A stretch of 64,000 nt of DNA from Bacteroidales bacterium (GTDB taxonomy: Bacteria > Bacteroidota > Bacteroidia > Bacteroidales > PXBB01), in the NCBI GenBank assembly GCA_028698995.1, contig JAQVVM010000012.1:1-64000 (forward strand). Direction: 5' to 3'. The notes under the pieces are model-generated. The model searched no databases and was not told where the DNA came from. It worked only from the letters and a program-made list of their open reading frames with translations. Shown here one piece after another: positions 1-20,011 of this stretch (the first letter of the stretch is position 1; each line of letters opens with the position of its first letter). The position numbers and the translations under genes are program-made.

Positions 1-112
1 CCAACGAGTGAGGGTGTTGTATTTAAATTCGTCAAAGAATCCATCCCCGAACGGCTTTGGTTGCGCCGGTAATGAAATCCGATTATTTTAGCAAATTTTT
101 AAGCAGCCTTGA
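1..112. repeat. Core repeat, copy A (cut by window start)
   Basis: The first 112 bases match the last 112 bases of the cores at 558-754 and 1141-1337, as far as I can see without mismatch, ending in AAGCAGCCTTGA. The window begins inside this copy, so the array may continue to the left. No plausible coding frame runs through it. The core is followed by a hairpin that is interrupted in this copy: after GTTACTTT at 120-127 a 47-base segment (128-174) intervenes before GTGTCAAGACAAAGTAAC. Confidence 0.85.
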
Positions 113-329
113 CTTTTGCGTTACTTTACTCACTAAACTTTTATTTTATAGGTGTTCGTGAAAGCTAAGCTTTAGTGTCAAGACAAAGTAACAAGAAATT
201 AAAAATCTTTTTTTCTCAATTATTTCCGGAATCGTTTTAGGGGCAGGCTTAAAGCCACGGTTTTGTCATGGAATTTGCATGGCTTCGCAGCAAATTCACA
301 CGCCAAAACCATTCTTTCCAATCCTTTTT

Positions 330-352
330 GCCACGGGTTAAAAACCCGTGGC
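330..352. repeat. Perfect hairpin GCCACGGGTT/AACCCGTGGC
   Basis: Ten-base perfect arms (330-339 and 343-352) around a 3-base loop. The same palindrome recurs at 926-947 and, degenerate, at 1029-1050. It is one of several dispersed hairpin types in the spacer between core copies; a further variant with CCACG/CGTGG arms lies near 437-465. There is no T-tract that would make it an ordinary terminator. Confidence 0.8.
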
Positions 353-362
353 TATTAAGATT

Positions 363-379
363 GTTCCCCTCTGGGGAAC
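363..379. repeat. Perfect hairpin GTTCCCC/GGGGAAC
   Basis: Seven-base perfect arms around TCT, 10 bases after the preceding hairpin. It recurs unchanged at 958-974, again just after the GCCACGGGTT hairpin, so the order of the hairpins is conserved between spacer copies. Confidence 0.8.
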
Positions 380-475
380 TTTGGTTTCATCACTGTAATA
401 ATTGCACGCCAAAACCAATTATCTCTTTTCTTTATACCACGCGTTACGCTTTGCTTCACCCGTGGCAATACATAT

Positions 476-494
476 GGCAGTCCTCCGGACTGCC
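476..494. repeat. Perfect hairpin GGCAGTCC/GGACTGCC
   Basis: Eight-base perfect arms with loop TCC. The second spacer has a 16-base uninterrupted palindrome of the same type at 1061-1076, and a shorter relative (AGTCC TAC GGACT) sits at 24448-24460 in a separate intergenic region. This shows the family is dispersed and not confined to this array. Confidence 0.8.
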
Positions 495-557
495 TTTTAG
501 CACACTACAAATCTAAAAAGATAGAAAGAATCATTTGGCATTCACGTTTACGAAGCG

Positions 558-754
558 CGAAAACGGCCTTTTAAAAATTTGCGTTAAAATTGAGGATTTC
601 ATTACACAACATAAAAATCAATTTTTTAGGTAATTAAAGCAACCAACGAGTGAGGGTGTTGTATTTAAATTCGTCAAAGAATCCATCCCCGAACGGCTTT
701 GGTTGCGCCGGTAATGAAATCCGATTATTTTAGCAAATTTTTAAGCAGCCTTGA
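558..754. repeat. Core repeat, copy B (197 bp)
   Basis: The 197-base stretch starting CGAAAACGGCC and ending AAGCAGCCTTGA appears identical by eye to 1141-1337 (offset 583). Its right part (643-754) equals copy A. The spacers between cores have diverged much more than the cores. No open frame of gene-like quality is present. Confidence 0.9.
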
Positions 755-761
755 CTTTTGC

Positions 762-787
762 GTTACTTTGTGTCAAGACAAAGTAAC
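762..787. repeat. Core-distal hairpin, copy B
   Basis: Perfect 10-base arms GTTACTTTGT and ACAAAGTAAC around GTCAAG, starting 7 bases after the core. The equivalent hairpin after copy C (1345-1370) has different arm sequences but the same arm and loop lengths; after copy A the stem is split by 47 bases. Confidence 0.8.
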
Positions 788-925
788 AAGAAATTAAAAA
801 TCTTTTTTTCTCAATTATTTCCGGAATCGTTTTAGGGGCAGGCTTAAAGCCACGGTTTTGTCATGGAATTTGCATGGCTTCGCAGCAAATTCACACGCCA
901 AAACCAATTTCTTCTTTTCTTTTTG

Positions 926-947
926 CCACGGGTTGAAACCCGTGGCT
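926..947. repeat. Perfect hairpin GCCACGGGTT/AACCCGTGGC, second copy
   Basis: Same 10-base arms as 330-352 with a 2-base loop (GA). It is followed by the GTTCCCC/GGGGAAC hairpin at 958-974, as in the first spacer. Confidence 0.8.
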
Positions 948-957
948 ATTAACATTG

Positions 958-974
958 TTCCCCTCTGGGGAACT
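958..974. repeat. Perfect hairpin GTTCCCC/GGGGAAC, second copy
   Basis: Identical arms and loop to 363-379. It lies at the same relative place in the second spacer. Confidence 0.75.
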
Positions 975-1060
975 TTGGGTTAATCACTGTAATATTTGTA
1001 TGCTAAACCAATCATTTCTTTTCTTTTTGCCACGGGTTGAAACCAGCGGCAACAAACATG

Positions 1061-1076
1061 GCAGTCCTAGGACTGC
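1061..1076. repeat. 16-bp palindrome GCAGTCCTAGGACTGC
   Basis: Perfect uninterrupted palindrome; it corresponds to the looped GGCAGTCC hairpin at 476-494 of the first spacer. Confidence 0.75.
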
Positions 1077-1140
1077 TTTTTAGCGCAATAAATCTTATAA
1101 AAGGTAAAAGAAGAATTGTAGCACTATTGTTAACGAAGAC

Positions 1141-1337
1141 CGAAAACGGCCTTTTAAAAATTTGCGTTAAAATTGAGGATTTCATTACACAACATAAAAA
1201 TCAATTTTTTAGGTAATTAAAGCAACCAACGAGTGAGGGTGTTGTATTTAAATTCGTCAAAGAATCCATCCCCGAACGGCTTTGGTTGCGCCGGTAATGA
1301 AATCCGATTATTTTAGCAAATTTTTAAGCAGCCTTGA
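1141..1337. repeat. Core repeat, copy C (197 bp)
   Basis: Third copy, identical by eye to 558-754. It is the last copy: beyond it comes only its distal hairpin (1345-1370), then about 340 bases of AT-rich DNA up to recG in which I see no gene, repeat or RNA apart from the recG promoter element. Confidence 0.9.
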
Positions 1338-1344
1338 TCTTTTG

Positions 1345-1370
1345 GTCCTTTTGGATCAAACCAAAAGGAC
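1345..1370. repeat. Core-distal hairpin, copy C
   Basis: Perfect 10-base arms GTCCTTTTGG and CCAAAAGGAC around ATCAAA. It occupies the same place relative to the core as 762-787, with equal arm and loop length but different sequence. Confidence 0.8.
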
Positions 1371-1687
1371 AAGAAAGACATAAAACAGCTTTTTATGTTC
1401 GTTTGCGGCAGAATTAATTTTTTATAAAATTAAAATGTTGATAATAAGCAAATTAATAAAATATTTAAATTTAGGGTGGACAAGTCAGGAGCATCATTAG
1501 CCACTCTTTTGTATTATATCTGGATTTTTATGGGTAGAAGGAACTAAATCTGATTCATCAATATTTCCTTTTTTTCGCAAAAGGAGTGTTCATTCATAAA
1601 AACTTAGGTCTAAAATTTTATTTTGCTTAGTTATCAAGGATTTTGTATTTTGTTTGCTAAACGTTTTTAAAATTGATTAAAGATTAT

Positions 1688-1695
1688 TAGCTTTG
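1688..1695 (+). promoter_or_regulatory. -7 element TAGCTTTG before recG
   Basis: Matches the Bacteroidota -7 consensus TAnnTTTG, 19 bases before the recG start and followed by C as in several other starts of this window. A convincing -33 TTTG is not visible. Assignment rests on the motif and its position only. Confidence 0.5.
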
Positions 1696-1714
1696 CATAT
1701 AAACAATTCCTTTT

Positions 1715-3817
1715 ATGAGCCATATTTTAGATACACCGATAAATTTTCTTAAAGGTGTTGGTGAGCAGAAAGCAGAACTGCTTAAAAAGGAATTGGGTAT
1801 TTTTTATTTCCGCGACCTTTTGCATCATTATCCTTTTCGCTATGTAGATAAATCACAGTTTTATAAGGTAAATGAAATCAAGGATGAAAATTTTTACTAT
1901 CAGCTTAAAGGATACATAAGAGATTTTCAAACAATAGGTCATAAACAATCTCAGCGTATCACAGCTGTTTTTTACGATGAAACCGGTGAAGTTGAATTGC
2001 TATGGTTTAAAGGTCTTAAATGGATTAAAGAATTTGTAAAATCCGGACAGGTTTACACAATTTATGGAAAACCCAAAAGCTTCAGGGGCGTATTCAGTTT
2101 TGTTCATCCTGAACTTGAAATTTATGAGCCTCAAAAGACCACCAATATGATTCAGTTTGAGTCTGTTTACAACTCTACTGAAAAACTTAAAGCCAATTTT
2201 CTTGACAGCAAAGGCTTAAGAAAGCTTTGTTATCAGTTGTTTGAAAAAATTGACGGTCGTATTGAAGAGAATTTATCAGCAGAGGTGTTGGCTTTAACAA
2301 AATTTCCTTCAAAAGCCGAAGCACTCAGAATGATACATTTTCCTCAGAACCAAAATGATTTCTTAAAAGCAAGACAGAGATTGGTTTTTGAAGAATTTTT
2401 CTTTTTTGGGTTGAAACTGCTCTTATCACGCAATTTGAGGGATAAAAATGTCAAAGGTTTTGTATTTGAGAGTGTTGGCGATTACCTGACAACTTTTTAT
2501 AAAAATAACCTTCCCTTTGAACTCACTAATGCCCAGAAGAGAGTAATTAAGGAAATGCGAAAGGATATGGCCACAGGCCGGCAGATGAACAGGTTGTTAC
2601 AAGGGGATGTGGGAAGTGGAAAAACCCTCGTAGCTCTTATGCTCATGCTCATTGCTGCTGATAATGGCTTTCAATCATGTCTGATGGCCCCGACTGAAAT
2701 ACTTGCCCAACAACATTTTAACAGTTTTCAAAAATTTCTTGCTAATCTAGGTATTCAAATTAATTTGCTTACAGGCTCTACTAAAGCTAAGGAAAGAAGA
2801 GAAATTCATGACAGCCTTCTAACCGGAAAAACCCATATCTTAATTGGTACCCATGCGCTTATTGAGTCTGCTGTTCAGTTTAATAACCTGGGATTTGTTG
2901 TAATTGATGAACAACATCGTTTTGGTGTAGCTCAAAGAGCCAAATTATGGCAAAAAAATTCAATACCACCACATGTTTTGGTTATGACAGCCACACCTAT
3001 TCCACGGACACTTGCTATGACCGTTTACGGAGACCTTGATGTATCCCAGCTTGATGAATTACCACCAGGTAGAAAACCTATTAAAACCCACCATGTTTAT
3101 GAATCATCCAGACTCAGGGTTTTTGAATTTATACGAAAAACTGTCAAAAGAGGAAAACAAGTCTATGTCGTCTATCCGCTTATTGAGGAATCTGAAACCC
3201 TCGACCTGAATTTCCTTATGGATGGTTTTGAAAGTATTTCCCGCTCATTTCCATTACCTGAATATGCCGTTAGTATTGTCCATGGTAAAATGAAAGCTGC
3301 TGATAAAGAATATGAAATGATGCGCTTTGCTAAAGGCGAAACTGATATCATGGTTGCCACTACAGTGATTGAAGTAGGAGTGGATGTCCCTAATGCATCA
3401 GTCATGGTTATTGAAAATGCCGAACGTTTTGGCCTGGCGCAACTCCACCAACTCAGAGGTAGAGTGGGGAGGGGAGATGATGAGTCAAATTGTATCCTTA
3501 TTACTTCCGATAAAATTTCAGCCGATGGATTGAAAAGAGTTAAAGCCATGACTGATACTAATGACGGCTTTAGAATAGCCGAACTTGATTTGACCCTCAG
3601 AGGAGGAGGTGATATTCAGGGGCTCAGGCAAAGTGGTATGCCCGAGTTTAAAATTGCCGATATTTTTAGGGATGAAAAAATGCTCAAATATGCCAAAAGT
3701 GTAGCAGAAAGTGTGCTTGCCAAAGATAATCTGTTATCCCTTCCACATAACGCAATGTTGCTTAACTATCTTAAGCAAACATCATATGGCAATAAGCAAT
3801 GGAGCAGAATAAGTTAG
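1715..3817 (+). CDS. recG: ATP-dependent DNA helicase RecG
   Basis: Superfamily 2 helicase that remodels stalled forks and Holliday junctions. The 700-residue length is normal for RecG. The N-terminal wedge/OB region carries the helix-hairpin-like start (FLKGVGEQKAELLKKELGI). The helicase core shows Walker A GDVGSGKT (residues 297-304), the DEQHR box (398-402), TATPIPRTLAMT, and the C-terminal ATTVIEVGVDVPNA and QLRGRVGRG motifs typical of RecG. The ATG at 1715 directly precedes the conserved N-terminus; there is no Shine-Dalgarno sequence, as usual in this phylum. It is probably monocistronic: the next gene starts 102 bases later behind its own -7 element. Confidence 0.97.
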   Translation: MSHILDTPINFLKGVGEQKAELLKKELGIFYFRDLLHHYPFRYVDKSQFYKVNEIKDENFYYQLKGYIRDFQTIGHKQSQRITAVFYDETGEVELLWFKGLKWIKEFVKSGQVYTIYGKPKSFRGVFSFVHPELEIYEPQKTTNMIQFESVYNSTEKLKANFLDSKGLRKLCYQLFEKIDGRIEENLSAEVLALTKFPSKAEALRMIHFPQNQNDFLKARQRLVFEEFFFFGLKLLLSRNLRDKNVKGFVFESVGDYLTTFYKNNLPFELTNAQKRVIKEMRKDMATGRQMNRLLQGDVGSGKTLVALMLMLIAADNGFQSCLMAPTEILAQQHFNSFQKFLANLGIQINLLTGSTKAKERREIHDSLLTGKTHILIGTHALIESAVQFNNLGFVVIDEQHRFGVAQRAKLWQKNSIPPHVLVMTATPIPRTLAMTVYGDLDVSQLDELPPGRKPIKTHHVYESSRLRVFEFIRKTVKRGKQVYVVYPLIEESETLDLNFLMDGFESISRSFPLPEYAVSIVHGKMKAADKEYEMMRFAKGETDIMVATTVIEVGVDVPNASVMVIENAERFGLAQLHQLRGRVGRGDDESNCILITSDKISADGLKRVKAMTDTNDGFRIAELDLTLRGGGDIQGLRQSGMPEFKIADIFRDEKMLKYAKSVAESVLAKDNLLSLPHNAMLLNYLKQTSYGNKQWSRIS

Positions 3818-7949: not shown

Positions 7950-8501
7950 TTATACCAAATGAGTTGGTTTAATTATCTCCATTCCTTTACGGATGGCTTG
8001 TTCATTCAAGGGAATCAATCTATGGTATCTTTCCGGAAGAACCTTCGATAGTCCTTTGAGAATGTTTTCAAGTTCAATAATCGGTTTTATTTTAAGAAAA
8101 CCACCCAAAACAATCATGTTCATGATTTTGGTGTTGTTCATTTTTATGGCTTCTTCAGATGCTTCCATCATATAGACATTGATATCTTTTCTAATGGGGT
8201 GTCTTGTAATTCCATTACTATCGTAAATAAGCAAACCACCTGGTTTTACCTTTGATTCAAATTTATCCATCGAAGGTTGATTAAGAACAATGGCAGTATC
8301 ATACACATTGACAATGGGTGAGCTTATTTTATCATCGCTGATAATAGCTGTACAATTGGCAGTGCCGCCTCTCATTTCAGGACCGTATGATGGAAACCAT
8401 GTTACTTCTTTGTTCTGCATAACTCCGGAATAGCAAAGAATCTGTCCCATTGACAAAACACCTTGTCCACCAAAACCTGCTATAATAATTTCTTCTGTCA
8501 T
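7950..8501 (-). CDS. korC: 2-oxoacid:ferredoxin oxidoreductase, gamma subunit
   Basis: 183-residue catalytic gamma subunit of the ferredoxin-dependent 2-oxoacid oxidoreductases, beginning IIIAGFGGQGVLSMG, the family signature (residues 5-19), and continuing with SYGPEMRGGTANC. It works with the alpha and beta subunits encoded immediately upstream, decarboxylating a 2-oxoacid to acyl-CoA while reducing ferredoxin. Last gene of a four-gene operon; 12 bases follow the beta-subunit stop. Whether the substrate is 2-oxoglutarate (Kor) or branched-chain 2-oxoacids (Vor) cannot be settled by eye. Confidence 0.9.
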   Translation of the reverse strand: MTEEIIIAGFGGQGVLSMGQILCYSGVMQNKEVTWFPSYGPEMRGGTANCTAIISDDKISSPIVNVYDTAIVLNQPSMDKFESKVKPGGLLIYDSNGITRHPIRKDINVYMMEASEEAIKMNNTKIMNMIVLGGFLKIKPIIELENILKGLSKVLPERYHRLIPLNEQAIRKGMEIIKPTHLV

Positions 8502-8513
8502 AATTATTAATTT

Positions 8514-9275
8514 TTATTGTTGTGGTACTTTAATATCTCCAAGTGGATAAAACGGGAACATATTCTCTTCCATCCATTTGTTTGACTCAACCGGGGTCAT
8601 TTTCCAATTTGAAGGACAGTTTGAAACAATCTCGACAAAACAGGTGCCTTTATTGAGTTTTTGGTATTCGAGTGCTTTTTTTAGAGCTCTCTTCGCTTTT
8701 CTTGCATTGGCCGGTGTATGAACCGACTGGCGTGTAACATAATACGTTCCGGCTAATTGGGCAACCAGTTCTGTTATTTTTAGCGGATTACCCATGGTTT
8801 TTGTGTCCCTGCCAAATGGTGATGTTGAGCTTTTCATTCCTGAAAGCGTTGTTGGTGCCATTTGCCCCCCTGTCATGCCGTAAATACCATTGTTTATAAA
8901 TACGATAAGTATGTTTTCTCCCCTGTTACAGCAATGTATGGTTTCTCCTGTACCTATGGCAGCGAGATCCCCATCTCCCTGATATGTAAATACATATTTC
9001 TCAGGCATTACCCTTTTGATTCCTGTTGCTACTGCTGTAGCACGTCCATGTGCAGCCTCTTGCATGTCAAGATCAAAATAGTAATAAGCCAATACCGAGC
9101 AACCTACCGGGGCTACACCTATTGTTTCATACTGAATATCCAATTCATCTATGGCTTCTGCCAACATCTTGTGTGCAGTTCCATGACCACATCCGGGGCA
9201 GTAGTGCATCACTTTATCCGTTAAAACCTTTGTCTTTTGGTAAACTATATTTTCAGGTTTAATTATTTCTGACAT
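8514..9275 (-). CDS. korB: 2-oxoacid:ferredoxin oxidoreductase, beta (thiamine diphosphate) subunit
   Basis: 253 residues. It has CPGCGHG near residue 25, the thiamine-diphosphate motif GDGDLAAIGTGE near 100, and NNGIYGMTGGQMAPTT near 127, all standard for the beta subunit. It binds thiamine diphosphate and forms the active site with korA. The start is fixed by a strong Shine-Dalgarno sequence (9282-9288) that lies within the final codons of korA; the genes are 3 bases apart, so translation is likely coupled. Confidence 0.93.
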   Translation of the reverse strand: MSEIIKPENIVYQKTKVLTDKVMHYCPGCGHGTAHKMLAEAIDELDIQYETIGVAPVGCSVLAYYYFDLDMQEAAHGRATAVATGIKRVMPEKYVFTYQGDGDLAAIGTGETIHCCNRGENILIVFINNGIYGMTGGQMAPTTLSGMKSSTSPFGRDTKTMGNPLKITELVAQLAGTYYVTRQSVHTPANARKAKRALKKALEYQKLNKGTCFVEIVSNCPSNWKMTPVESNKWMEENMFPFYPLGDIKVPQQ

Positions 9276-9278
9276 ATT

Positions 9279-10349
9279 TTATCCTCCTATTAATTTGGTT
9301 TCTAATGCATTGAGTATTTCATCGGGTGCAGGAATCATGCCTCCGAATCTTCCGTAGAACTCAACTTTTGTTTTTCCATTTACTGCCAGCTTAACATCTT
9401 CGACCATCTGACCGGCATTCATCTCCACTGTTAATATTCCTTTAACTTTTGAAGCTAGTTTATTGATAGCCTCGTATGGATAAGGATAAAGGGTTTGAGG
9501 ACGAAATAAACCTACTTTAATACCTTTTGCTCTTGCAAGTTCCATGGCTTTCTGGGAAATTCTGGCACATGATCCGAACGCAACCATCAGATAATCTATC
9601 TCTTCGTCACAATTATAGGTTACATATCTGATCTCGTTTTTTTCTACTTCTCTGTATTTTGCCTGTAAACGAAGGTTGACTTTCTCCTGCTCTTCTGATT
9701 GAAGCATAAGTGAAGTAACAATGACATGATCTTTGCCTCTTACTTTCCCTTTTGTTGCCCAATCGAATTGTTCTGTTATTCTTGGTTGTTGTTCAAACAA
9801 TTCTACCTTCTCCATCATCTGACCAATGATGCCATCTGTCAGAATCATAACTGGATTTCTGTATTTGAAAGCAAGTTCAAAGCCTAATTTTACATAGTCA
9901 ACGCTTTCCTGTACAGTTGCAGGAGCTAATGTTATGAGTTTATAATCACCATGTCCGCCACCTTTTACTGATTGAAAATAATCAGATTGTGATGGTTGTA
10001 TTGTTCCTAAACCAGGGCCTCCTCTGACTACATTTGCGAGAACACAGGGAAGTTCTGCACCTGCAATATAAGAAATCGCTTCCTGCATTAGACTGATGCC
10101 GGGACTTGAAGAAGTGGTTAGCACTCTCTTTCCGCAAGCTGCTGCTCCATATACCATGTTAATAGCTGAAACTTCACTTTCTGCCTGTAACACAACCATG
10201 CCCGTAATTTTCTCAGGCTGCTTAAACATCAGATATTCAATAACTTCCGACTGGGGTGTTATAGGATAGCCGAAATAAGCATCTGCACCGGCTCTGATGG
10301 ATGCCTCAGCCAATGCTTCATTACCTTTCATTAATTTTAATTCTTTCAT
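9279..10349 (-). CDS. korA: 2-oxoacid:ferredoxin oxidoreductase, alpha subunit (VorB/KorA type)
   Basis: 356 residues. It begins with MKGNEALAEASIRAGADAYF and contains the diagnostic GYPITPQSEV (about 26-35), followed by the pyrimidine-binding and C-terminal transketolase-like domains (GLFRPQTLYPYP). Databases often name close Bacteroidota relatives VorB, so a branched-chain 2-oxoacid substrate is a real alternative. Second gene of the operon, behind the ferredoxin subunit. Final codons Ile-Gly-Gly double as the ribosome-binding site of korB. Confidence 0.92.
   Translation of the reverse strand: MKELKLMKGNEALAEASIRAGADAYFGYPITPQSEVIEYLMFKQPEKITGMVVLQAESEVSAINMVYGAAACGKRVLTTSSSPGISLMQEAISYIAGAELPCVLANVVRGGPGLGTIQPSQSDYFQSVKGGGHGDYKLITLAPATVQESVDYVKLGFELAFKYRNPVMILTDGIIGQMMEKVELFEQQPRITEQFDWATKGKVRGKDHVIVTSLMLQSEEQEKVNLRLQAKYREVEKNEIRYVTYNCDEEIDYLMVAFGSCARISQKAMELARAKGIKVGLFRPQTLYPYPYEAINKLASKVKGILTVEMNAGQMVEDVKLAVNGKTKVEFYGRFGGMIPAPDEILNALETKLIGG
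9282..9288 (-). promoter_or_regulatory. Shine-Dalgarno sequence of korB
   Basis: Minus strand reads AGGAGGA 6 bases before the korB ATG. It overlaps the korA stop region. Such strong sites are rare among the other starts in this window. Confidence 0.7.
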
Positions 10350-17191: not shown

Positions 17192-20011
17192 TTAATGCAA
17201 TTTTTTTCTTAAATATTTGCCTGTATAAGATTCTTTGCAATTCACTAAATCTTCAGGAGTACCCTCAAAGACTACATAGCCACCACTTTCCCCGCCTTCT
17301 TTGCCAAGGTCAATAACCCAGTCTGCACATTTGATTAAGTCAAGGTTATGCTCGACTACAATAATTGAATGTCCATAATCAATTAACTCATTGAATGCGG
17401 CATAAAGTTTATTGATGTCATGAAAGTGGAGACCCGTTGTTGGCTCATCAAAAATGAAAAGATATGGCTCTTTGGCAGAGCCCATGGTTAGGAAATAGGC
17501 TAATTTAATTCTTTGTGCTTCACCACCGCTTAAAGAGTTTGAAGATTGTCCCAGTTTGACATAACCAAGACCCACATTAGAAAGTACTTGTAAGGAATTA
17601 ACGATTTTGTTGTGTTTTTTTATATCGGATTTGAAAAATCCCAAAGCCTCATCCACAGTTAAATCAAGAATTTCGGAAACGTTAAGGTTGTTGTACTTGA
17701 CATCCAGAATTTCACTTTTGAAGCGCTTTCCCCCACAGCTTTCACACTTGAGTTTTACGTCGGCCATAAATTGCATGCCTATGGTTACTTCACCTTCACC
17801 TTCGCACTCTTCACACCTTCCACCGGGAACATTAAAAGAGAAAAAATTTGGTTTGTAGCCCCTTATAATTGAAAGTTTTTGTTCGGAAAACAAACTTCTG
17901 ATGTTGTCAAATATTTTAAGATAAGTAGCCGGGTTTGAACGTGATGATTTACCTATCGGGTTTTGGTCTACCATTTCAACATTAGTTATTAGATGTTTGT
18001 CAAAGACCAAAGTGTCATATTTGCCCGCTTTATCTGATAACCCTGAAATTTCTCTTTTTAAAGCGTTATATAAAATTTTTTTTATCAATGTCGTTTTGCC
18101 GGAACCACTTACTCCTGTGATAGCACAAATGACCCCAAGTGGGAATTTAATATCAATATTTTTCAGGTTGTTTTCACGGGCACCATTTAACTGAACAAAC
18201 TCTTTCCAGTGTCTTCTGATTGAAGGAACAGCTATTTCCATATTCCCTTTGATATATGCTGCCGTGAGTGATTCTTTGGCAAGGAGTTCATCAAAAGTAC
18301 CCTGAAAGGTAATTTCTCCTCCATTCTGTCCTGCGAGCGGACCTATATCAATAATATTTTCTGCAGCTTCAATGACATCCTGATCATGTTCAACAACAAC
18401 TACTGTGTTGCCTATACTTTTAAGTCTCTTCAAAATATTAATAAGTCGGAAGGTGTCACGAGGATGCAGGCCTATACTTGGCTCATCAAGAATATACATG
18501 GCTCCTACAAGATTGCTGCCTAAAGAAGTGGCTAGATTAATGCGTTGCGACTCTCCTCCTGAAAGGGTGTTTGAAGGTCTGTTCAGGGTAAGATAGGGTA
18601 AGCCTACATCAATGAGATATTTTAACCGCGAATTTATTTCTGTAAGCAATCTTCGGGAAACTTCAAAGTCGTAAGCATTGAGTTTAATTGTTGTGAAGAA
18701 ATCATAAAGTTCAGAAATGGGCATTAGCAGAAGATCAATCAGGGATTTCCCTGAAATTTTTACATAAGCAGAGTCTTTTCGCAATCTTGTTCCTTTACAT
18801 TCATCACACGTTGTTTTACCTCTGTATTTTGCCATGATTATCCTGTACTGTATTTTATAGGCTTGTGTTTCCACAAACTTAAAAAAATCAAAAATGCCAA
18901 AAAGTTCTCCTTGACCTTCCCAAAGCAGTTGTTTTTCTTCTTTATTTAAGTCTTTATAGGGCTTATGAATTGGGAAATTGTGTTTGTAGGCTTTCAAAAT
19001 AAAATCATTTTTATACTCGGACAATTTGTCTCCAATCCAACAAGCTACAGCACCTTCATAAATCGATAAAGAGCGGTTAGGGATTACCAAATCTTCGTCG
19101 ATTCCTAATACAGAGCCAAATCCCTCACATTTGGAACAAGCCCCGTAGGGGTTATTAAAGCTGAAGAAATTTGGTGATGGTTTAACAAAACTGATACCAT
19201 CAAGTTCAAATCTGTTTGAAAAGGTTTCTGTTTGCCAATGGTCCTTCTCTTTCTCAAAAAAAATATGACATTCACCATGCCCTTCATAGAAAGCTGACTG
19301 AACTGAATCTGCAACACGTGAATTAAAATCTGCATCGCAATTTTTTACTATTAAACGATCCACAATAATGCCCTTAACCTCCTTATCCAACAAATCTGGT
19401 TTTTCATTTACTTCATTCAACGAAACAATGTTATTTCCTATTAACAATCGTGAGAAACCTTGTTTTACTAATAACTCGATGTATTTTAGAGCAGCAGCTT
19501 TATCTGTTGTTGAGAACGGAAATAAGATAAGAATTTTACAGTCCTCGGGAAGTTTACATACAAAATCCACCACATGCTTAACTGTGTGTCGTTTTACTTC
19601 ATTTCCTGAAATAGGAGAGTATGTTTTACCAATGCGCGCAAACAACAACTTGAGAAATTCATAAATTTCTGTTGAGGTACCAACCGTAGAGCGTGGGTTG
19701 CGTGACTTAACTTTTTGTTCAATGGCAATTGCAGGCGATAAGCCCTTTATGTATTCAACATCGGGTTTATCCATACGTTGTAGAAACTGACGGGCATAGG
19801 AACTCAGGCTTTCAACATAACGTCTTTGCCCTTCTGCATAAAGGGTATCAAATGCCAGAGATGATTTTCCTGAGCCGGACAATCCTGTTATAACGACCAT
19901 TTTATATCTTGGAATGGCCAATGAAACATTTTTTAGATTATGTACATTTGCGCCCTTAATGATTATAAAATCCTTAGGATTGAACTTGTCTAGTTCGCTG
20001 TTGCTGCCCAT
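17192..20011 (-). CDS. uvrA: Excinuclease ABC subunit A
   Basis: 939-residue damage-recognition ATPase of nucleotide excision repair. It has two ABC modules: Walker A GLSGSGKSSLAF near 41 with signature LSGGESQRINLA and DEPSIGLHPRD, and Walker A GVSGSGKTTLIKK near 630 with LSGGEAQRIKLA and DEPTTGLHFHD. Zinc-finger cysteines are present (CSKCEGFG, CDECKGTRL, CEECEGEGEV, CESCGGKRF). Length is normal. A TACCTTTG -7 element lies 39 bases upstream. It is divergent from the radical SAM cassette, with 87 bases between the starts. Confidence 0.97.
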   Translation of the reverse strand: MGSNSELDKFNPKDFIIIKGANVHNLKNVSLAIPRYKMVVITGLSGSGKSSLAFDTLYAEGQRRYVESLSSYARQFLQRMDKPDVEYIKGLSPAIAIEQKVKSRNPRSTVGTSTEIYEFLKLLFARIGKTYSPISGNEVKRHTVKHVVDFVCKLPEDCKILILFPFSTTDKAAALKYIELLVKQGFSRLLIGNNIVSLNEVNEKPDLLDKEVKGIIVDRLIVKNCDADFNSRVADSVQSAFYEGHGECHIFFEKEKDHWQTETFSNRFELDGISFVKPSPNFFSFNNPYGACSKCEGFGSVLGIDEDLVIPNRSLSIYEGAVACWIGDKLSEYKNDFILKAYKHNFPIHKPYKDLNKEEKQLLWEGQGELFGIFDFFKFVETQAYKIQYRIIMAKYRGKTTCDECKGTRLRKDSAYVKISGKSLIDLLLMPISELYDFFTTIKLNAYDFEVSRRLLTEINSRLKYLIDVGLPYLTLNRPSNTLSGGESQRINLATSLGSNLVGAMYILDEPSIGLHPRDTFRLINILKRLKSIGNTVVVVEHDQDVIEAAENIIDIGPLAGQNGGEITFQGTFDELLAKESLTAAYIKGNMEIAVPSIRRHWKEFVQLNGARENNLKNIDIKFPLGVICAITGVSGSGKTTLIKKILYNALKREISGLSDKAGKYDTLVFDKHLITNVEMVDQNPIGKSSRSNPATYLKIFDNIRSLFSEQKLSIIRGYKPNFFSFNVPGGRCEECEGEGEVTIGMQFMADVKLKCESCGGKRFKSEILDVKYNNLNVSEILDLTVDEALGFFKSDIKKHNKIVNSLQVLSNVGLGYVKLGQSSNSLSGGEAQRIKLAYFLTMGSAKEPYLFIFDEPTTGLHFHDINKLYAAFNELIDYGHSIIVVEHNLDLIKCADWVIDLGKEGGESGGYVVFEGTPEDLVNCKESYTGKYLRKKLH

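Follow-up and report, generated by a model that had tools for sequence, protein, structure and literature searches.

The left end of the window, the 64,000-nucleotide stretch of DNA analysed here, carries an array of repeats that belong to a family found in many genomes of the phylum, which from gene content we read as Bacteroidota. That this family is real and conserved through the fold of a single strand is close to certain. The favoured reading, to which we assign a probability of roughly 0.4, is that the array is built from a non-autonomous dispersed element, passed on in folded single-stranded form and multiplied through recombination. The evidence comes from the repeat itself, from covariation across the phylum, and from the surroundings and persistence of the copies.

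The array at the contig end

The window sits at the left end of contig C75, in a genome of 4.47 Mb and 119 contigs. An earlier note on this DNA described near-identical cores of 197 bp. The two complete cores, at 558–754 and 1141–1337, are identical at 197 of 197 positions, and window positions 1–112 match core positions 86–197 exactly. The repeat proposed in that note is therefore real, but its unit was cut too short, because the tail hairpin that follows also belongs to the element. In an alignment of 24 copies from the window's genome with one from a relative, homology extends past the core and through this hairpin. Each whole element of the window begins at a GGC (565, 1148) and ends with the tail (787, 1370).

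Three copies lie on the plus strand. Copy 1 (1–192) is cut by the contig end and comprises the partial core (1–112) and a tail (113–192); its covariance-model match over 1–192 scores 15 bits with the 5' end missing. The tail hairpin of this copy holds a 47-nt insert (128–174), absent from copies 2 and 3, with an inverted repeat of its own (CACTAAA..TTTAGTG). Copy 2 (565–787) is a whole element with a long hairpin, a GGC base and a pseudoknot tail, with homology from about 558 and a match at 565–788 of 71.7 bits. Copy 3 (1148–1370), also whole, has the core of copy 2 with a different tail; homology starts at about 1141, and the match at 1148–1371 reaches 75.3 bits. Weak minus-strand matches at 1344–1439 (21.3 bits) and 18858–18964 (13.3 bits) are possibly relics or chance.

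The spacers, at 193–557 and 788–1140 on the same strand, keep the same order of hairpins, as had been claimed: GGTTTTG..GAATTTGC, GCCACGGGTT, GTTCCCC, a second CCACG hairpin and GCAGTCC. In spacer 1 hairpins lie near 259–310, 330–352, 363–379 and 476–494, and in spacer 2 near 854–905, 925–946, 957–973 and 1061–1076. The spacers had been called diverged and their hairpins perfect. They do differ, but only mildly (89.6% identity over 347 aligned positions), and some hairpins are imperfect, among them the second CCACG hairpin in both spacers. Beyond the array lie a gene at 1715–3817 that we take to encode a RecG helicase and three minus-strand genes (7950–10349), presumably for subunits of a 2-oxoacid:ferredoxin oxidoreductase.

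The array continues past the left edge of the window, as the earlier note expected, since contig C99 finishes with core positions 1–85 and contig C74, read in reverse, opens with core positions 1–95; either could supply the continuation. Genome-wide, the core has 42 matches (E ≤ 0.001), 27 of which were treated as full-length copies (75–100% identical to those in the window), and the spacer has 67. With these counts the array is not a single assembly artefact. Some spacer matches lie apart from cores, which indicates that the hairpin modules have also dispersed independently. Among partial copies in this genome, with contig ends excluded, the 3' end is kept in about nine and the 5' end in about three. 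This suggests that copying begins at the 3' end, although the numbers are small and the pattern may simply reflect better conservation of the tail.

A fold and a pseudoknot conserved on one strand

On the plus strand the element folds into a long imperfect hairpin closed by a GGC...GCC base of three pairs, an inner stem and then the tail. In the alignment from the window's genome, the inner stem surrounds the conserved unpaired letters CGAGTGA and GAACGGC. This alignment holds 58 pairs with 98.9% of cells paired, a value matched by none of 500 shuffles, and double-sided changes occur in 19 of the 58. GU cells outnumber AC cells by 21 to 3, which identifies the plus strand as the folded one.

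The fold is also maintained across the phylum. A covariance model was built from 24 elements from nine sources, a set over which 29 pairs, the pseudoknot included, were counted. The best 150 of 198 matches to the model, from 91 loci, gave an alignment of 133 distinct elements in which 95.3% of cells are paired and 810 cells are double-changed, against 206 after shuffling. The covariation score is 0.564, compared with at most 0.111 when slid. GU cells again exceed AC cells (95 vs 28), and wobble pairs are scarce, at 95 of 3,619 standard cells or about 2.6%. Elements are about 160–260 nt long. They begin, just after a pyrimidine, with GGC (or GAC, GCC or CGC), and the foot of the tail hairpin marks their other end. 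The three base pairs vary together among the 133: GGC/GCC in 66, GAC/GTC in 37, GCC/GGC in 12, CGC/GCG in seven, GTC/GAC in four and others in seven. Conserved unpaired motifs are GCGTTAAGAAA, CTGTYTGA, GAGTT and TTTTAGC.

The tail is a hairpin whose loop pairs with five letters that lie after the base and just before the hairpin (TTGAY:RTCAA), forming a pseudoknot. The copies in the window illustrate the pairing on identical cores. In copy 2, TTGAC at 751–755 pairs with GTCAA at 772–776, inside the loop of a plus-strand hairpin at 762–787 (762–771 with 778–787). In copy 3, TTGAT at 1334–1338 pairs with ATCAA at 1355–1359, and the hairpin spans 1345–1370 on the same strand (1345–1354 with 1361–1370). 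Thus a T-A pair in copy 3 occupies the position of a C-G pair in copy 2, and the pairing covaries.

Similar exchanges recur in other elements. The letter after TTGA and the first loop letter form T-A in 59, C-G in 47, A-T in one and T-G in one of 108 distinct elements, with no other combination among them; of 116 elements, eight whose loop lacks TCAAG are left out of this table. The phylum alignment is not biased toward the pseudoknot, because the pseudoknot lay outside the model that aligned it. There the last pseudoknot pair is TA in 76, CG in 30, AT in 22, mismatched in three and gapped in two of the 133. All five pairs are standard in 116 of 133 elements (the sum of the listed types) and not all kept in the other 17; copies with a CGC/GCG base that were inspected likewise did not keep all five. 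One element of another genome (L125:14034–14261) carries, by eye, GCGGGCGAT with ATCGC on the loop side, and its base is CCCGC/GCGGG instead of the usual letters, which looks like a swap of whole pairings.

In the strand that links the pseudoknot letters to the tail stem, T makes up 72% and A 1.3%, and the stem beside the loop is nearly always TTTT/AAAA. A U-rich strand followed by a stem with U-A pairs beside a pseudoknot is the layout that allows a U-A-U triple helix in telomerase RNA. The element shares this layout as a likeness of geometry only, and no kinship is claimed.

Dispersal and array histories

The tail pattern was searched in 395 genomes of the phylum with the reversed pattern as a control. 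It occurs in 37 genomes, one of which carries at least 50 copies, and the control in none. A long hairpin of this type, with differing central motifs, precedes most of these tails. The covariance model, scored on up to seven matches per genome, detects the family in 113 of the 395 genomes, which represent 56 of 171 genera; it went undetected in 282 genomes. The exact class-A pattern is narrower, occurring only in the window's genome among the 395 and in one contig of an 84,980-species collection. A viral scan matched 13 contigs, about half of which hold real elements by eye, the rest being chance matches in coding DNA. Plasmid records gave no match for the two elements searched, and phage records gave just a 27-base match for the one element searched.

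Rfam 15 returned no match for window positions 1–3000 (E ≤ 1), and none on the element at 17 other loci (E ≤ 0.1). A whalefall-1 RNA (RF01762, 54.6 bits) lies just past an element at L091:1665–1721 on the minus strand, and L088 has a weak match. No published description of the family was found in the open-access full text searched; such repeats may be annotated under other names in some cultured relatives.

Elements are intergenic and occur in both orientations. Around 101 elements, both neighbouring genes lie on the element's strand in 22 cases and on the opposite strand in 23, while 27 are convergent, 16 divergent and 13 lack one neighbour. The near-equal first two counts indicate that the element is not part of messages in a fixed sense. 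GC skew in the element's orientation is positive in 47 of 101, and hence replication-strand bias is absent. Over the 60 bases that precede the 133 elements, a TAnnTTTG promoter motif occurs five times, against 3.8 in shuffled sequence, and shows no excess. Among 506 ORFs beside elements no protein family recurs as a neighbour; three clusters draw on three sources apiece, of which two resemble ordinary cellular genes and the third joins three viral contigs.

The elements are dispersed, with varying positions and with unrelated flanks directly outside the element in four genomes (G368, G403, G432, G269). Transposition as such is our inference. At a site that G403 (L175/L176) shares with G368 (L125:4702–4869), the G403 element is interrupted by repeats and a transposase relic; the relic is a Y1 transposase with short palindromes on both sides.

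Arrays are common and often same-strand. In nine of them adjacent elements are 90–99% identical and adjacent spacers 80–96%. The earlier note had suggested gene conversion. Elements are indeed more alike than spacers in most arrays, but the two values are near equal in the related species G405 and G110, which means that selection on the element explains the likeness as well as gene conversion does. Gene conversion may have homogenised the copies, but it need not be invoked.

Two arrays occupy matching positions in G405 and G110, with 2/2 and 4/3 copies. In the second (L236, L239), elements are 94–98% and spacers 92–96% identical between the species, compared with 88–89% for two neighbour genes. 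An array can therefore persist and be better kept than genes. Such conservation resembles that of a selected function, or the result of interspecies exchange, more than the behaviour of a passive parasite. Arrays can also be gained or lost, since G110 and G405 have no element at an intergenic site that carries four in G193. Neither a target duplication nor a clean excision scar was observed, the DNA between genes being too diverged among the compared species for exact junctions. In G436, elements of two classes stand among similar spacers in one array (L242:5681–9774), as if classes could replace each other at one place.

Competing explanations and proposed mechanism

The suggestion of a mobile or RNA function for the core was well taken, given a fold-conserved family dispersed in many genomes. 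The proposed mechanism is a mobile one. An element without a gene of its own would spread as a folded single strand, recognised through its structure by a factor that is probably chromosomal. Local arrays would arise through unequal recombination, and recombination or selection would keep their copies alike. Counting against this mechanism are the lack of any observed target duplication or excision scar, the close conservation of the array in G405 and G110, the unpaired motifs and T-rich strand, and the 17 elements in which the pseudoknot is not fully paired.

The alternative that survives best, tentative but a serious contender, is that the copies are structured RNA genes that are transcribed, fold and act in trans, and multiply by duplication. 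The covarying one-strand fold and pseudoknot agree with it, though they are expected of folded single-stranded DNA too. The array conserved beyond its neighbour genes in G405 and G110 also speaks for an RNA gene, as do the T-rich strand next to the TTTT/AAAA stem and the unpaired motifs, features no less suited to RNA than to DNA. By analogy with telomerase RNA, the 3' pseudoknot with its U-rich strand may adopt a U-A-U triple helix that shields the 3' end. Against RNA genes stand the unrelated flanks in four genomes and the many genomes in which the family is undetected. The missing promoter signal, the lack of orientation relative to genes and the scarcity of wobble pairs also count against them, and lead us to lean slightly toward single-stranded DNA over RNA.

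A fuller version of the mobile reading would have gene-less mobile elements across the phylum whose folded strand is recognised by the pseudoknot and copied by a host enzyme without a known connection to mobile DNA, with the window array as a local amplification. Taken with all of its parts, we regard it as rather unlikely.

A recombination site that folds as a single strand and is cut by a recombinase, in the manner of attC, is an improbable explanation. The attC sites of integrons are imperfect hairpins in arrays whose one-strand structure is conserved, and the element shares these traits: its arrays are same-strand, structure is kept rather than sequence, and in the window's genome the upstream gene is often on the element's strand. 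In contrast to attC, no cassette genes were seen with the element, and its base is GGC/GCC or a variant. Genes between copies in G368 and G363 are ordinary, with an order partly common with a relative, which tells against an array of integron-type cassettes. The 101 elements show no orientation bias, and no recombinase recurs beside copies.

Movement by a REP-associated Y1 (RAYT) transposase, perhaps of Bacteroidetes subclass 2.6, is still harder to sustain, and we hold it to be very improbable. REP/BIME repeats are short, palindromic and intergenic, occur in many copies and mosaic clusters, and depend on single-strand structure. The element resembles them in these respects, but differs in its length, its pseudoknot, its phylum-wide range, its conserved motifs and its lack of a tie to a Y1 gene. 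REP hairpins carry a GTAG/GTGG tetranucleotide at the foot; the element begins after a pyrimidine at GGC or a variant. BOX/ERIC-type mosaic repeats, compared by description, are likewise modular and intergenic with RNA-like folds and no gene of their own, as the element is; we know of no 3' pseudoknot of this kind in them.

The Y1_Tnp domain (PF01797) is present in 16 of 19 element-bearing genomes, and the text of PMC6006769 that was consulted describes atypical structures flanking subclass 2.6 genes. At the search threshold the domain is undetected in the other three, G485 (at least nine element copies), G213 and G347. A tail detector run around 28 Y1 loci gave four matches, none of the family by eye, and 33 Y1 loci have no element match nearby except one of 35 nt (L060). 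The five Y1 genes of the window's genome have no significant element match near them. The earlier note's suggestion of a Y1/RAYT gene is thus not supported, and this transposase is rejected as a necessary factor, being undetected in three genomes and with no whole element at the examined Y1 loci. Y1 genes of the window's genome (L056–L059) are each ringed by short palindromes of their own, unlike those of the array.

Two other enzymes were rejected as necessary factors. Reverse transcriptase (PF00078), which a retroelement or retron would need, is undetected in 14 of 20 element-bearing genomes, and TnpB (PF07282), associated with the omega-RNA of IS200/IS605, in 18 of 20, with one of its two matches below the cut-off. 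The single-contig genome G201:C1 holds 19 reverse-transcriptase matches, many of equal score.

The least probable reading is a MITE whose terminal inverted repeats serve a double-strand DNA transposase, since, despite long imperfect inverted arms, many copies and a length near 200 bp, the ends are not mutual inverted repeats (GGCCT.. on the left, a tail hairpin outside the arms on the right), no target duplication was seen by eye in the flanks, empty sites being too diverged for exact junctions, and the inner stem and pseudoknot covary as well, something that a duplex-cutting enzyme does not need. For this phylum, an IS982-derived MITE appears in the consulted part of PMC9769881, and the corresponding part of PMC5771137, also on MITEs, has no bearing on the family.

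In about three of ten sampled genomes of the phylum, compensating changes keep a fold with a 3' pseudoknot, which implies either a structured RNA of wide distribution or a mobile element directed by its structure. On both readings these bacteria must share a factor that reads the fold, and the family is abundant enough for testing in laboratory strains.
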